From IMG/VR virus record IMGVR_UViG_3300017917_004106, positions 1 through 30,255 of that record: a DNA stretch of 30,255 bases; one strand, written 5' to 3'. Below are positions 2,314 through 17,717 of the stretch, piece by piece. The notes under the pieces are model-generated. The model saw nothing but the letters and a program-made list of their open reading frames with translations, ran no database searches and was not told the origin of the DNA. Made by a program: the position numbers and the translations under genes. The stretch comes from a virus. How positions within the stretch are numbered: the stretch's first letter is position 1; each line of letters begins with the position of its first letter.

Positions 2314-2560
2314 ATTAAAAGACGCATTAGATCTCAAGTTCCTGTGCCCAGCAAAGTTTTCACAAATTATAGAAGAACTTGTAAAAACTAATGAGGAAAT
2401 GAATTATATTGATGCTATTGTGCATTACTGCGAAGAGAATAAAATTGAAGTTGATTCAGTTGCTAAACTGATTAGCAAACCCCTCAAAGAAAAACTCAAG
2501 TGTGATGCTATTAACTTAAACTTTTTGAAACGAACATCTAGAGCTAAACTTTTAATATGA
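2303..2560 (+). CDS. 33: gp33-like late promoter transcription accessory protein
   Basis: An 85-aa homologue of T4 gp33, which bridges the host RNA polymerase beta flap and the sliding clamp gp45 to co-activate late transcription. The frame opens earlier (ATG 2261), but that start would bury 53 nt in the nuclease gene. ATG 2303 gives the usual size and an 11-nt overlap. The segment MNYIDAIVHYCEENKIEV, then AKLISKPLKEKLKCDAI, follows the T4 pattern SYLEATTAFLEENSI...AKFI...I..KI..EAI. The C-terminus ends in hydrophobic LLI, consistent with the clamp-binding tail that ends T4 gp33 (LDFLL). The stop overlaps the gp59 start as ATGA. Its presence fits the TATAAATA-like late promoters seen before many structural units in the window. 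Confidence 0.82.
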   Translation: MEDKLKDALDLKFLCPAKFSQIIEELVKTNEEMNYIDAIVHYCEENKIEVDSVAKLISKPLKEKLKCDAINLNFLKRTSRAKLLI

Positions 2561-3147
2561 CCTCATTTGATGCTTATAAAACTTACCTTGCACTCAAGAA
2601 TCATTTTAGTAAACCAAAGTATGATTACTTTAAATATGCAGGTAAGTCCAGAGCATCAGCAGATTCATTCAATAAACGAAAAGATAAGTATTGGTTTGAA
2701 AGAATCAGTAGACAAAAGAATGATGAAGAAATAAAAAACTTTTTTCTTTCTAACTTTGTTGCATTGGATAATCCACAAGCAGTTTGGATTGGACAACTAA
2801 TGCGAGAAGGTGAAGATGCATATCAACAATGGACAAAAAGACAGCAGAGTTTGAAGTATCTTTTCACACAAGAGTCTCAAGATATGTTGTCTGAAGGTAA
2901 CTTGGATGAAGTTCTTGATGCTTCAAAGCAACATCCTACCATCTTGAAAAAATTCCTGAGCGGGAAAATTAGTATAGAAACCTTCACCATTTATGATAAA
3001 ATATTCCTGTTCAGGAATAATTTTGATAAAAAACTTTTAGATCCTGTATGGGAAATAGTGTCACTAAAGATACAGAAGTACTCTCCATTCCTAAATATTG
3101 ATATACAGGATTACAAAAAAATCTTGAGAAATATTGTAGAGGGGTAA
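2557..3147 (+). CDS. 59: gp59 loader of the gp41 DNA helicase
   Basis: A 196-aa counterpart of T4 gp59 (217 aa), which binds fork DNA and gp32 and loads the replicative helicase gp41. The recognisable order is YKTYLALKNHF (T4: YKLYLMIKQHM), KYDYFKYAGKSRAS, SFNKRKDKYWFERIS (T4: AYQKRRDKYFFQKLS), FLSNFVALDNPQAVWIG (T4: FISNLVAN.DAWIG), and a C-terminal helical part with SIETFTIYDKI (T4: SFETFILLDSF). It starts inside the gp33 stop (ATGA) and is followed one base later by the DUF1825-like gene. gp32, its known partner, is two genes downstream, so the helicase-loading and ssDNA-binding functions are clustered. The identification is strong from motif order and context. Confidence 0.93.
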   Translation: MTSFDAYKTYLALKNHFSKPKYDYFKYAGKSRASADSFNKRKDKYWFERISRQKNDEEIKNFFLSNFVALDNPQAVWIGQLMREGEDAYQQWTKRQQSLKYLFTQESQDMLSEGNLDEVLDASKQHPTILKKFLSGKISIETFTIYDKIFLFRNNFDKKLLDPVWEIVSLKIQKYSPFLNIDIQDYKKILRNIVEG

Positions 3148-12802: not shown

Positions 12803-13534
12803 ATGCCATTACCAGTTGTTGCAACTCCAACCTATGAGTTGATTTTACCATCCAATAAGAAAGCAGTTAAGTATAGACCTTTTCTTGTTAAGGAAGAGAA
12901 AGTTTTAATTCTTGCTATGGAGAGTGGTGATTCAAAAGAAATCACCAATGCAGTTAAAGATGTATTAAAGAACTGCATTTTGACAAGAGGAATTAAGATT
13001 GATACTCTTCCAAGTTTTGATATTGAATACTTGTTCCTCAATATCAGAGCAAAATCTGTTGGAGAATCTGTAGATTTGATTATCACCTGTCCTGATGATG
13101 GTCAAACACAAGTGGAAGTTAAACTTGATATTGATGATATTGAAGTTGTCATTCCGGAAGAACATTCATCAGAAGTAAAAGTTGATGGCAACATTGTAGT
13201 AAAGATGAAGTATCCATCACTACAAGAGTTTATTGATAACAACTTTGATTTTTCTAAACAGAAAAGTAGTCAGGATACTATCGATAAATCTTTTGAGATT
13301 GTTGCATCCTGTGTTGATATGGTTTATACCAAAGATGAATCTTGGTCATCTGCAGATGTAACCAAGAAAGAACTGGTTGAATGGTTGCAAACATTTGATG
13401 CCAATCAATTTAAACAGATTGAAGAGTTCTTTAATACTATGCCAAAACTTTCTCACACCATGAAAGTTACTAATCCAAATACTGGAGTTGAGAATGAGAT
13501 TGTATTGGAGGGTCTCTCAAGTTTTTTCGGATAG
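12803..13534 (+). CDS. 26: gp26 baseplate hub protein/chaperone
   Basis: A 243-aa homologue of T4 gp26 (208 aa; T4_baseplate family), which acts in baseplate hub assembly. The N-terminus is MPLPVVATPTYELILPSN followed by KYRPFLVKEEKVLILAMES, the family's most conserved part. Then come VKDVLKNCI, FDIEYLFLNIRAKSVGE, VKMKYPSLQEFI and the C-terminal VEWLQTFDANQFKQIEEFF, FNTMPKLSHT and EIVLEGLSSFFG. The last four sense codons include T TTT TTC immediately before the stop (see the slippery-site entry), and a gp51-like ORF continues in the -1 frame. By gene order and size it behaves like a tail-assembly chaperone of the lambda gpG type. A late-like promoter lies just upstream. Confidence 0.92.
   Translation: MPLPVVATPTYELILPSNKKAVKYRPFLVKEEKVLILAMESGDSKEITNAVKDVLKNCILTRGIKIDTLPSFDIEYLFLNIRAKSVGESVDLIITCPDDGQTQVEVKLDIDDIEVVIPEEHSSEVKVDGNIVVKMKYPSLQEFIDNNFDFSKQKSSQDTIDKSFEIVASCVDMVYTKDESWSSADVTKKELVEWLQTFDANQFKQIEEFFNTMPKLSHTMKVTNPNTGVENEIVLEGLSSFFG
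13522..13528 (+). other. Candidate -1 ribosomal frameshift slippery heptamer
   Basis: T TTT TTC is in the correct phase for an X XXY YYZ heptamer in the gp26 frame (codons agt ttt ttc gga tag). It stands 3 nt before the gp26 stop. A -1 slip reads TTT TTT CGG ATA and continues without a stop to 13713, through the gp51-like ORF. Downstream, AAGAT/ATCTT (about 13547-13559) could form a weak stem. The phase and overlap are seen; frameshifting is inferred. Confidence 0.6.
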
Positions 13535-13713
13535 TCCTTAGTCATGAAGATTTAGTATCTTATTATAGAATTAATTTTGCCTTGATGCAGTATCATAAAT
13601 ACTCTTTGACAGAGATTGAAAATATGATTCCTTGGGAAAGGGAAATTTATCTATCCCTTTTAGAAGCACATATACAAGAAGAAGAGGAAAAAGCAGCTAA
13701 GGCAAATAGATGA
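13525..13713 (+). CDS. 51: gp51-like baseplate hub assembly protein (likely -1 frameshift extension of gp26)
   Basis: The frame after the gp26 stop encodes about 60 residues: HEDLVSYYRINFALMQYH, KYSLTEIENMIPWEREIYL, then SLLEAHIQEEEEK and AAKANR. The IPWEREIY..LL..HI.EE.E block is the pattern I associate with short gp51-type proteins of cyanophages and with T-type tail-assembly proteins of other phages. No ATG or GTG precedes the conserved HEDLVSYYRINF part. The only internal starts are TTG 13582 and ATG 13585, which would cut it off, and neither has a Shine-Dalgarno. The natural reading is therefore production as a gp26-gp51 fusion by a -1 shift at 13522-13528. The stop TGA overlaps the ATG of the next gene (ATGA). 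The coding call is strong from conservation; the expression route is inferred. Confidence 0.72.
   Translation, partial: FRIVLSHEDLVSYYRINFALMQYHKYSLTEIENMIPWEREIYLSLLEAHIQEEEEKAAKANR
13594..13601 (+). promoter_or_regulatory. Possible internal late promoter CATAAATA
   Basis: CATAAATAC lies inside the gp51-like ORF, 108 nt upstream of the next gene. It differs from the T4 late consensus by one base. It encodes His-Lys-Tyr in frame, so a chance match is quite possible. Confidence 0.22.
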
Positions 13714-15389
13714 ATCCAGAAGATTTTAATTACTTTCAATCAAGGGTTTCCAGATTTATCACTGGTTCAAATCGTAGAAGTAGTTCTGGGTCTTTTCTTT
13801 CGCCAAGAATTACTCGTCTTTCTGGGATCATTCCAAAGAGAGCCCTTCCATCACAAATTTTTTCAAGACCAGCAGCATCTGCAGATGATGCCATTGAATC
13901 TTCAGGTAGAGGAATATCTTCATTAGGTCGTGTCACACTTGACCTCGAGATTATTAATAATAATCTTGATAGAATTAGACAGATTATAGAGCAGGACTAT
14001 AAAAATACACAAGAAATTAATAGAAAAGAAACAGAAGATTTTAGAAAGCGTGTAGCAAACAGAGGAAGAATATTTGGTAGAAGAGAACTTGGTGATAAGA
14101 AAACTGATGTTCTTGGTGCAGTTAAGAAATATGTAGGATCATTCTTTAGTGGGACTGGTGGTGCAATCAGAGCACTTGCCATGTTTAATTTACTTCAAGG
14201 TATTTTATCTGGCGACCCATCAAAAATTATTGGACCTTTACTTGGGATTGGATTAACCTATATTCCTGCCATTGCAACTGGTATAGCAGGAGCAGTTGCC
14301 ACATCCTTAGTAGGTAAATTGTTTGGTGGAGGAAATGCAAAGGCAGCAGCAACTGCTGCAGAGGCAGCACCAGCAGCAACAAAAGTTCCAAGAATGCGTA
14401 AGTTTGGAAAGTATGCTGCACTTGCTGGATTGGCTGCAACTGGAGCTGCCTTATTGACTAACACACAAGAGGATGATTCTCAGCAACAAAGATTAGAACA
14501 ATTAACTCAGGAACAAAAGGGACTTACAGATCCTCAAAACTTAGTTCCAATTCCTCAGGATGATCTAAAGAGATTTGAAAACTTAAACAAAAGATTTGAA
14601 GCAGCACTTGATTTTTTGATGGGTAAAGGTGGTAGGCAACAAGAACAACAAACAACAGATTCTGGTGGTGGGGGAACTCCTCCACCAGGACCTTTACCAG
14701 ACCCATATGATATTCCGAACTTAAATGTTACGCCAGGATCAGTTGGTAGTTTGGATCAATTTAAAAATGTTCTTAAAGGAACACCAATGGAATCAGAATC
14801 AGAATCAATATATAACACTGCACTAAGCGAGGGATTGAACCCTGCATTTGTGGCTGGACTTGCTGGAGCAGAATCTAGTTTTGGTGCTGCTGGTATTGCA
14901 TCTGGAACAAAAAATCCTTTTGGATTACTTACAGGATATTCACCAACATCTTATGCAGATGCCACAAGGTATTTGGCTAGGAGATTAAGAGATCCTCAAG
15001 GACCTTATGCTGGAAGAACCACATTCCAGGAAATTATGGAAAAATATTCTCCACCATCTCAAAATAATTTACCAAGACATATGGCAAATATAATGAATGT
15101 AGGAGCTAGAAGTGGAGGAGATCCAGCTACTCTGTTTATTCCAAGAGGATTTAGAGGAACTCAAGCGTCAGTATTACCTTCACCATCTGCACAAAGACAA
15201 CAAAGACAGCAAATATACATGCCCCCACAAACAGTCCAACCAGAATTTACTTTTGTTCCTGTTGATTCTGGAAGTCAAACTCCTTCATCTACAGTAGCAT
15301 CATCTAATGACTCAGCAATTTCTGTAGATACTACACACCCAGAAAACTTTTTGGCATTATATTCCAAACTCATTTATCAGGTGGTGTGA
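13710..15389 (+). CDS. Tail-associated protein with C-terminal lysozyme-like (SLT-type) domain
   Basis: A 559-aa protein. A basic N-terminal region (SRFITGSNRRSSSGS) is followed by a coiled segment, then FRKRVANRGRIFGRREL and VKKYVGSFFSGTGG, and hydrophobic Gly/Ala-rich stretches (AIATGIAGAVATSLVGKLFG at about 191-210 and AALAGLAATGAALL at about 235). A Gln/Gly/Pro linker leads to a domain at about 365-480: IYNTALSEGLNPAFVAGL, AGAESSFGAAG with candidate catalytic Glu388, NPFGLLTGY, and YADATRYLARRL. That order fits lysozyme-like/lytic transglycosylase or glucosaminidase modules. It shares its N-terminal architecture with the next gene, and both lie between the gp26/51 pair and gp27, where T4 has no equivalent. 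A role as tape measure or as a channel-forming, peptidoglycan-cutting tail protein is inferred. T4 gp29 is 590 aa, but I see no direct similarity. Confidence 0.75.
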   Translation: MNPEDFNYFQSRVSRFITGSNRRSSSGSFLSPRITRLSGIIPKRALPSQIFSRPAASADDAIESSGRGISSLGRVTLDLEIINNNLDRIRQIIEQDYKNTQEINRKETEDFRKRVANRGRIFGRRELGDKKTDVLGAVKKYVGSFFSGTGGAIRALAMFNLLQGILSGDPSKIIGPLLGIGLTYIPAIATGIAGAVATSLVGKLFGGGNAKAAATAAEAAPAATKVPRMRKFGKYAALAGLAATGAALLTNTQEDDSQQQRLEQLTQEQKGLTDPQNLVPIPQDDLKRFENLNKRFEAALDFLMGKGGRQQEQQTTDSGGGGTPPPGPLPDPYDIPNLNVTPGSVGSLDQFKNVLKGTPMESESESIYNTALSEGLNPAFVAGLAGAESSFGAAGIASGTKNPFGLLTGYSPTSYADATRYLARRLRDPQGPYAGRTTFQEIMEKYSPPSQNNLPRHMANIMNVGARSGGDPATLFIPRGFRGTQASVLPSPSAQRQQRQQIYMPPQTVQPEFTFVPVDSGSQTPSSTVASSNDSAISVDTTHPENFLALYSKLIYQVV

Positions 15390-15392
15390 TAA

Positions 15393-17717
15393 ATGGATCC
15401 AACCACACTTTTAAATAGACCAAAAACACTAAACATCACTCCAAAGATTACTAAGATTAATAATCTTTCTATTGCATCTGGTCAGGCAAGAAAATCTTCT
15501 ACAAAATTAGTTAAAGTTTTTGAGAAAGGAACATACCAAAAGAAAACTCAACTGTCTGTTTTGAACAGATACAAAAGACGTTTAGAGTCAATTCAAAAGC
15601 AGAATGACAGGGCTTTTGGTAGGAAGAGAAAAGTAAAAGTAAAAATGCCAGACATTAAAAAGTATGTTGGCAGTTTCTTCACTCCTGGTTCTACTAATGA
15701 CCCACTCAAAGCGATAGGAGCACTTGCTGCTTGGAATTCTCTTTCAAAAGGTTCTAAGGGTGACTGGGGTGGAGCACTTGGTTCTGGATTAGTTGCATTT
15801 GGATTATTAGGTGGGGGTGCTGCTGGAATTAAAATGGCAAGAGCAATGTTTAAAGGAGGTGCTACTCCTGCTGCTTCAGGGGCTGGAGGTGCTGGAGTTG
15901 TTAGTCCTCCTTGGTGGATGAAAAATACTAAGTCATTGGGCAGATCAAATGAATCTTATGCAAGATACATAGCAGGAGAAGCAAACATTGGGGATAGAGC
16001 TAGATTAGCAAGAAGAGGAATGATTCCTGCATCTGGAATGTTTTCTCGTGGAGGAACAGATGTTCTTGCAAAACAAGCAGGAAAACCATTAGCAAAAGAA
16101 GCACTTGGGAGATTTGGGAAATCAATTATTCCTGGAATTGGTGCAGCATTTAGTTTTCAATCTGCTAAAGAAAGGGATAAAGCAGGAGATAAGTTTGGTT
16201 CTGCTGTTGATAATATAGCAGGAAGTTTAGATGCATTTGCTGCAGGAGTTCAACTTTATGCTGGAGCTTCAGCTGCTACAGGACTTGGACTTCCAGTAGC
16301 AGGATTTATTGAAATTGCAGCTGGCATCGCATCAATTGGTTCCTTTGGATTGGATATGTTTAATTTGGTCAGAGATATAACTGGTCAAAGTGATAAAGAA
16401 ACACAGAAAAATAAATTACAACAACAAACAGAACAACAAAAAGCATTAGTAGAAAAGAAAGGAGATGAAAAAGGTAAACTTACATTCTCAAAAACTTTGA
16501 ATAGTTATGATAGAGCAGTCACAAAATTTGAAGAATTTTCTAAAGGATTTACATCAAATAGAGCAAAAAGTTCTTATGTTGAAGGTAGAGAACCTCTTCC
16601 TCCACCTCCTCCTCCAGGTCAAAATGTCAAAATTAATTCACAAGTTGTTCAAGATGCAGTTGATTTTAGAAATCAATTTCCATTAGGAAGAGGAACACCA
16701 AATTCTTCTATGACTCCATATGAATTGCAAATGAGAGAAAATACTATGTTACATGCTGCTGGAATTGGTAATGATCCAACAGTAGAAAGTGTTCATGCTC
16801 AAGGGTCAGCACATTATTCAAATACAGCTATTGATATTCCAGTTAATAGTAGAGCAATTGGAGATAGGGTTGCTCAATTTTGGAGGTCAAGAGGATACTC
16901 TGTTTTGTGGCAAGTTGCTGGTCATTATGATCATGTGCATGTTCAGTGGAATGAAGGATCTACTCAGGCTGGACCACCAACAACTCCAAGTAATACTAAA
17001 GGATACATCATTATTCCTGGACACTCTACTGGTGGTGGAGCTCCTGGGGAAAAAGATTTAGTAAAAAAATTAGCTATTGATGCTTACAATAAAATAAAAA
17101 GACAAAATCCTAATGCTCCAGTTCAATATATGGATTTGGATTCAATGTTTGAAGATAGTGATGCTGGGTGGGATAAACAAAAAGCATGGTATGAAAATAT
17201 GGAAAGGCAGGGATATCAAGTTTTGGAAATTCATATGGATCAAAAAGGTGGTATTGGAAAGGGTGTTATTAGATCTCATGGTCAACAAAGTGGTGCAGCA
17301 AATCAATGGATAAAAGAAGGAAATTATGCTTATCCTATGGATTGGAGATCTAAACCTGGAGAAAAACCATTAGCAGGTCCACATAGAGGAGTTGATTTAT
17401 TTGAACTGGGTACAATGAAATCTGGATCCTATTCTCAAAATGAAATAAGTTCTTTAACTACTCCTTTTGTTTCATCTGTATTAAATTCTATTAAGGGGGC
17501 AGTAAGACAAACTACTGTTCCTCTTTCTACCAACTTACCTTATCAACAAGGATATAGGGCTCCAAGACCAACAGTAGTTCCATATCCAGTAGTCAGACAA
17601 CAAGCAGCAGCACCTGCAGCATCTGCACCATCAGCACCCATGATGTTCCCTGGACCATCAGAGCAACAACTGTTAAATAGTTTTTATAAGAAGGTTCTCC
17701 TCAATACAGTGCAATAA
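15393..17717 (+). CDS. Tail-associated protein with M15-type peptidase and amidase_3-like modules
   Basis: A 774-aa protein. The N-terminal 170 residues parallel the preceding gene (RRLESIQ..NDRAFGRKRK, IKKYVGSFFTPG, LAAWNSLSKG, then Gly/Ala-rich hydrophobic stretches), so the two are tandem paralogues. A membrane-like segment (LDAFAAGVQLYAGASAATGL) follows at about 280. The C-terminal half has two zinc enzyme modules. An M15/VanY-like D,D-peptidase shows H474 and D481 in SAHYSNTAID and H514/H516 in GHYDHVHVQW. An amidase_3-like module shows H544 in IIIPGHSTGGG, E553 in APGEKDL, H614 in LEIHMDQ and a late E671. Together they would cleave peptide stems of host peptidoglycan during DNA injection. 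The gene's stop overlaps the gp27 start. The module calls rest on metal-ligand motifs; the virion location is inferred from context. Confidence 0.78.
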   Translation: MDPTTLLNRPKTLNITPKITKINNLSIASGQARKSSTKLVKVFEKGTYQKKTQLSVLNRYKRRLESIQKQNDRAFGRKRKVKVKMPDIKKYVGSFFTPGSTNDPLKAIGALAAWNSLSKGSKGDWGGALGSGLVAFGLLGGGAAGIKMARAMFKGGATPAASGAGGAGVVSPPWWMKNTKSLGRSNESYARYIAGEANIGDRARLARRGMIPASGMFSRGGTDVLAKQAGKPLAKEALGRFGKSIIPGIGAAFSFQSAKERDKAGDKFGSAVDNIAGSLDAFAAGVQLYAGASAATGLGLPVAGFIEIAAGIASIGSFGLDMFNLVRDITGQSDKETQKNKLQQQTEQQKALVEKKGDEKGKLTFSKTLNSYDRAVTKFEEFSKGFTSNRAKSSYVEGREPLPPPPPPGQNVKINSQVVQDAVDFRNQFPLGRGTPNSSMTPYELQMRENTMLHAAGIGNDPTVESVHAQGSAHYSNTAIDIPVNSRAIGDRVAQFWRSRGYSVLWQVAGHYDHVHVQWNEGSTQAGPPTTPSNTKGYIIIPGHSTGGGAPGEKDLVKKLAIDAYNKIKRQNPNAPVQYMDLDSMFEDSDAGWDKQKAWYENMERQGYQVLEIHMDQKGGIGKGVIRSHGQQSGAANQWIKEGNYAYPMDWRSKPGEKPLAGPHRGVDLFELGTMKSGSYSQNEISSLTTPFVSSVLNSIKGAVRQTTVPLSTNLPYQQGYRAPRPTVVPYPVVRQQAAAPAASAPSAPMMFPGPSEQQLLNSFYKKVLLNTVQ

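Follow-up and report, generated by a model that had tools for sequence, protein, structure and literature searches.

The locus described here, from a virus related to T4-like cyanophages, probably gives rise to two forms of a tail assembly chaperone, the longer of which would arise by a -1 ribosomal frameshift at the end of gp26; judged from its sequence, this reading has a probability of roughly 90%. The locus is located on IMG/VR metagenomic virus record IMGVR_UViG_3300017917_004106, and the 30,255-nt (30 kb) fragment that was analysed is referred to as the window. An earlier note on this DNA had proposed that gp26 and a gp51-like ORF are joined by such a frameshift, and comparison with relatives gives this proposal strong support, from the slippery heptamer, the -1 phase and a switch of the frame under selection. 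The locus comprises the following features.

12803..13534, + strand: gp26 (T4_baseplate family PF12322, E = 1.5e-75; phrog_150, E = 2e-80), 243 aa, proposed as the short form of the tail assembly chaperone.
13507..13512, + strand: Shine-Dalgarno-like GGAGGG within gp26, a proposed stimulator; GGAGG ends 10 nt 5' of the heptamer.
13522..13528, + strand: T TTT TTC, the slippery heptamer, in phase with gp26 and unchanged across 131 distinct junctions.
13532..13534, + strand: TAG, the stop that ends gp26 in the zero frame, one codon 3' of the heptamer; a stop (TAG, TAA or TGA) is found at this exact place in 131/131 junctions.
13537..13555, + strand: candidate stimulatory hairpin, weak in the window, with arms 13537-13543 and 13549-13555, from pairing statistics and folding z.
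13525..13713, + strand: -1 frame extension with the gp51 domain (phrog_634, E = 1.9e-28; pN/pS), 62 aa plus stop TGA 13711-13713.
13582..13587, + strand: the sole local start codons of the -1 frame, TTG 13582 and ATG 13585, both within the conserved domain and lacking a Shine-Dalgarno.
13710..15389, + strand: next ORF, 559 aa, a candidate tail-lysozyme or tape-measure-like protein with no family assigned; its ATG overlaps the gp51 stop (ATGA), and family matches are sub-threshold only.

The final codons of gp26 are AGT TTT TTC GGA TAG, in which the heptamer stands in the X XXY YYZ phase and GGA is the single codon before the stop. The position, phase and distance to the stop that the earlier note had given for T TTT TTC are correct to the base. 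The -1 frame translates as FFRIVLSHEDLVSYYRINFALMQYHKYSLTEIENMIPWEREIYLSLLEAHIQEEEEKAAKANR and terminates at TGA 13711-13713, being open to 13713 as had been claimed. It was also right that neither ATG nor GTG precedes the conserved part, and TTG is likewise absent before position 13582. The window contains one PF12322 match and one gp51 match; as it is a fragment of the genome, a second copy elsewhere is possible. The 559-aa ORF downstream of gp51 has hydrophobic stretches, and family searches yielded no tape measure family match to it. This ORF and the consecutive ORF 15393-17717 have a KKYVGSFF block in common, with a hydrophobic stretch after it (43% over 70 aa, E = 3e-4); they could have diverged as paralogues of a tape-measure or hub protein.

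According to the proposed mechanism, the majority of ribosomes would end at the gp26 stop and produce the short form of 243 aa. A minority would be paused by the internal Shine-Dalgarno-like element, possibly also by a hairpin 3' of the heptamer, and would slip by -1 on T TTT TTC into the gp51 frame, yielding a gp26-gp51 fusion as the long form. A peptide of this fusion would span GLSSFFRIVLSHED at the junction. By analogy with gpG/gpGT of phage lambda, coating of the tape measure protein would fall to the short form, and tail tube or hub subunits would be recruited through the extension. The sequences show the signal, its conservation, and selection on the -1 frame in junctions that lack a start codon; we infer slippage in cells, a slippage rate that would leave the long form in the minority, and the chaperone role.

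Relatives were collected by two IMG/VR scans and from named phages, giving 165 cyanophage-type loci with 131 distinct 120-nt junctions, which share kinship and do not amount to 131 independent events. In every one of these junctions, T TTT TTC is followed by exactly one codon and then by a stop. Nearby codons vary, with all six codons used for Leu at -3, all four for Gly at -4, and all three stops. Other Phe-Phe pairs in gp26 are encoded by TTT-TTC in only 5 of 130 cases. Furthermore, the cyanophage-type relatives examined all have gp51 in the -1 frame relative to gp26. The earlier note had named in advance what could refute the frameshift, namely relatives in which the heptamer or the -1 phase is lost; none of the cyanophage-type relatives examined has lost either one. 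By itself, the 7-mer shows no enrichment, with 12 copies in the window (both strands) versus 20.3 in shuffles, and the signal therefore consists of phase, position and conservation. A chance heptamer was rejected on this basis, as these properties are not explained by chance. One other in-phase copy is present in the plus-strand ORFs of the window, 184 codons before the stop of its ORF. Separately, an in-phase A AAA AAT occurs at 3116-3122, 7 codons from the 3' end of ORF 2557-3147.

The heptamer also persists in more distant relatives. Twelve further loci with 33-40% identity contain T TTT TTC or T TTT TTT. Beyond the cyanophages, T TTT TTC is found in Cronobacter phage S13, Vibrio phage R10Z, Pseudomonas phage Astolliot, Stenotrophomonas phage YB07, and Aeromonas phage AS-szw, T TTT TTT in pf16 and Sinorhizobium phage phiN3, and T TTT TTG in Rhizobium phage RL38J1. 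The heptamer is absent from the Ackermannviridae-type relatives examined. In Pelagibacter phage Mosig (L084:2990-3031), T TTT TTC is retained, yet the zero frame runs seven codons beyond the usual one before it ends, unlike the 131 junctions.

A Shine-Dalgarno-like element (GGAGG, GAGGG, AAGGG or AAGG) is positioned 8-10 nt 5' of the heptamer in 131/131 junctions, and is the strongest such site in the scanned 3' part of gp26. Conserved Glu-Gly residues contribute to this element, and the relevant measure is the excess over the synonymous null: the energy of its duplex with the anti-Shine-Dalgarno is -7.75 kcal/mol versus -6.04 kcal/mol for synonymous random codons, with 0 of 100 replicates as low. 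Downstream, the 40 nt starting 5 nt 3' of the heptamer fold better than shuffles, with a mean z of -1.86 across relatives. RNAalifold, run on 88 or 130 sequences, gave no single consensus hairpin for all relatives. One conserved hairpin common to all was thus rejected, the hairpins being lineage-specific. The clade of the window has a 7-bp hairpin with 82.9% of cells paired, a value reached by 2 of 500 shuffles, and one pair with double changes; it is weaker than the P-SSM2-type hairpin, and weak in the window itself. The 11-bp hairpin of the P-SSM2-type group shows covariation and is matched by 0 of 500 shuffles, a count that carries a selection caveat; the A5 sequence set was partly picked by pairing, so that its hairpin counts lean toward structure. 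The frameshift signal of Escherichia coli dnaX consists of an internal Shine-Dalgarno about 10 nt upstream, the heptamer A AAA AAG, and a downstream hairpin. The order of elements is shared with the window, whereas dnaX differs in being a cellular gene, in its heptamer, and in giving a truncated product.

At the heptamer, the frame under purifying selection changes from that of gp26 to -1. In the 45 nt 5' of it, pN/pS is 0.30 for the gp26 frame but 1.88 for the -1 frame, while downstream it is 0.24 in the -1 frame and about 1.3 in the other frames. Within the clade of the window, the 45 nt 3' of the gp26 stop have a pN/pS of 0.16 in the -1 frame versus 1.03 and 1.44 elsewhere. In 16 distinct junctions, the window included, no ATG, GTG or TTG occurs until at least 20 codons 3' of the heptamer. 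For these junctions pN/pS in the -1 frame is still 0.165, and the nucleotides 3' of the heptamer must therefore be translated in that frame. Several relatives have a -1-frame stop directly 5' of the heptamer, so that there is no entry from upstream. The heptamer is the only evident entry into the -1 frame, a non-canonical start such as ATA or ATT being a remote alternative. Zero-frame readthrough and +1 shifts were rejected, as no conserved extension was seen in the cases inspected.

These data bear on a different reading, in which gp51 is a gene in its own right, initiated downstream of the gp26 stop through translational coupling or reinitiation, with the heptamer there only incidentally. 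GenBank records do annotate gp51 as separate genes. Of the 131 relatives, 80 have an ATG as the first start of the -1 frame, 4-8 codons in, and some have a TAATG overlapping the gp26 stop; Ackermannviridae-type relatives from Vibrio and Escherichia have TAATG and no heptamer. Incidental slippery sites would, however, leave the invariance of the heptamer unexplained, as well as the purifying selection before the first start in the 16 junctions without an early one. Moreover, Aeromonas phage AS-szw and Cronobacter phage S13 keep the heptamer without an annotated gp51 gene. A separate gene in place of the frameshift is consequently quite improbable. The two routes could coexist, with a separately started short gp51 in those relatives that have an ATG shortly 3' of the heptamer; the window has no such start. 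It is an unlikely reading that lineages with both signals make three products in regulated amounts, namely gp26, the fusion of gp26 with gp51 and, through reinitiation, a gp51 domain on its own; such three-product lineages would be an intermediate between frameshifting and separate genes. Kuttervirus S115 (L261:2270-2300) and KE30 (L266 around 1598) have neither the heptamer nor an ATG, GTG or TTG before the conserved -1 ORF. Instead, they have ATT exactly where Escherichia phage AV101 (L265) has the ATG overlapping the gp26 stop, possibly as a rare start or with another form of recoding.

A frame change could in principle also stem from RNA polymerase rather than the ribosome, by slippage on the T6 run. 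The heptamer does contain six consecutive T, a number that is short for efficient bacterial polymerase slippage. Its final base is C and not T in 131/131 junctions of the cyanophage-type group, and polymerase slippage assigns no role to the codon phase, the Shine-Dalgarno-like element or the fixed spacing. This origin is highly improbable here, although transcriptional slippage is a known cause of frame change (reviewed in PMC5009743). That a single in-frame gp26-51 gene was split by an error of sequencing or assembly within the T run is refuted by the equal run length and phase in isolated phages that different teams sequenced (P-SSM2, S-PM2, S-CAM1, S-PRM1) and by the agreement of 131 distinct junctions whose zero frame always stops one codon on; in its favour, homopolymers are prone to errors and the window comes from a metagenomic record.

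The two proteins that the frameshift would join belong to known families. In a profile search, gp26 covers positions 2-218 of 219 of PF12322, and the extension matches phrog_634, the baseplate hub assembly catalyst that represents the short cyanophage-type gp51. The baseplate hub family phrog_150 is matched by gp26 at profile positions 5-232 and by the extension at 232-280 of 282. These consecutive matches indicate that some members of this family carry both parts as one chain. T4 genes 26 and 51 belong to the same two families as the window proteins, but gp51 of the T4 group has its own gp26-like domain. In phage T2, which belongs to this group, residues 1-201 of the 249-aa gp51 match the gp26 family (E = 4e-55) and residues 147-246 match the short gp51. 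An hhalign comparison of the gp26 profile with T2 gp51 alone is modest (88%, E 3e-6), the Pfam match being stronger. As T2 gp51 thus combines gp26-like and gp51 domains in frame, the T4 group has two gp26-like genes, and duplication into two complete genes replaces the frameshift there. The two-gene arrangement is also found, by annotation and translated sequences, in Aeromonas phage 31 and Klebsiella phage phi1_146015. In the latter (L264:2501-3794), the gp51-like and gp26-like genes are overlapping tandem neighbours, which fits tandem duplication.

The predicted structure of gp26 has a pLDDT of 84 and a pTM of 0.77. Its best PDB matches are the HK97 tail assembly chaperone 2OB9 (Z 7.7) and two similar small proteins, 3FGX (7.3) and 3KLU (7.1), with alignments that span only the N-terminal residues 1-95 and Z scores in a range (<8) that, according to the tool, can reflect a common or chance arrangement; the first clearly unrelated row has a Z of 3.2. 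The modelled fold supports, but does not prove, the assignment of gp26 as a tail assembly chaperone. A link to lambda-type chaperones had already been drawn in the earlier note, and it gains support from the two-product layout, the domain composition of T2 gp51, and the HK97 chaperone as top structural match. A short form and a frameshifted long one, as in gpG/gpGT, are proposed for the window too. The lambda heptamer is G GGA AAG, whereas here it is T TTT TTC, and gp26 has about 240 aa.

Vladimirov, Gautam and Davidson (Virology, 2022) reportedly described the tail assembly chaperones of T4-like phages as frameshifted in some groups and encoded by separate genes in that of T4; the abstract is said to identify the T4-like chaperone genes as genes 26 and 51. 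Passages of later papers that cite this work mention poly-T slippery or frameshift signals in the TAC-N genes of T4-like phages (PMC12846349), and a short gene plus a long fusion gene in some T4-like phages instead (PMC10885494). The earlier note was unsure whether the frameshift had been reported for cyanophages. As far as these passages go, the mechanism has been on record for T4-like phages since 2022; in the literature searched, Vladimirov et al. 2022 excluded, no cyanophage-specific report of a gp26-51 frameshift and no ribosome profiling was found. The frameshift mechanism is thus known, and the window locus is an additional, unannotated case in the frameshifting branch of T4-like phages. 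The chaperone locus of Vandenendeviridae and Andersonviridae is similar in having a conserved -1 frameshift and a C-terminal ORF listed as a hypothetical protein in its own right, but differs in its motif, GTTTTT 5' of that ORF, and in belonging to other phage families; there, the frameshift was proposed from sequence conservation (PMC12846349).

Many cyanophage records give gp51 its own start or omit it. Being compact, the frameshift signal lends itself to a standard reporter assay. In 2010, it was remarked that cyanophage gp51 appears truncated by about 200 residues, and that gp51 is seemingly missing in Aeh1 (PMC3037559). The missing residues would be gp26 itself, joined by the frameshift, which would explain this oddity. 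The Aeh1-like Aeromonas phage AS-szw (L258:2262-2430) and Cronobacter phage S13 (L089:3223-3390) both have the heptamer and an unannotated -1 ORF at the gp51 position. An unannotated frameshifted gp51, as in AS-szw, may explain why the protein was reported missing in Aeh1.
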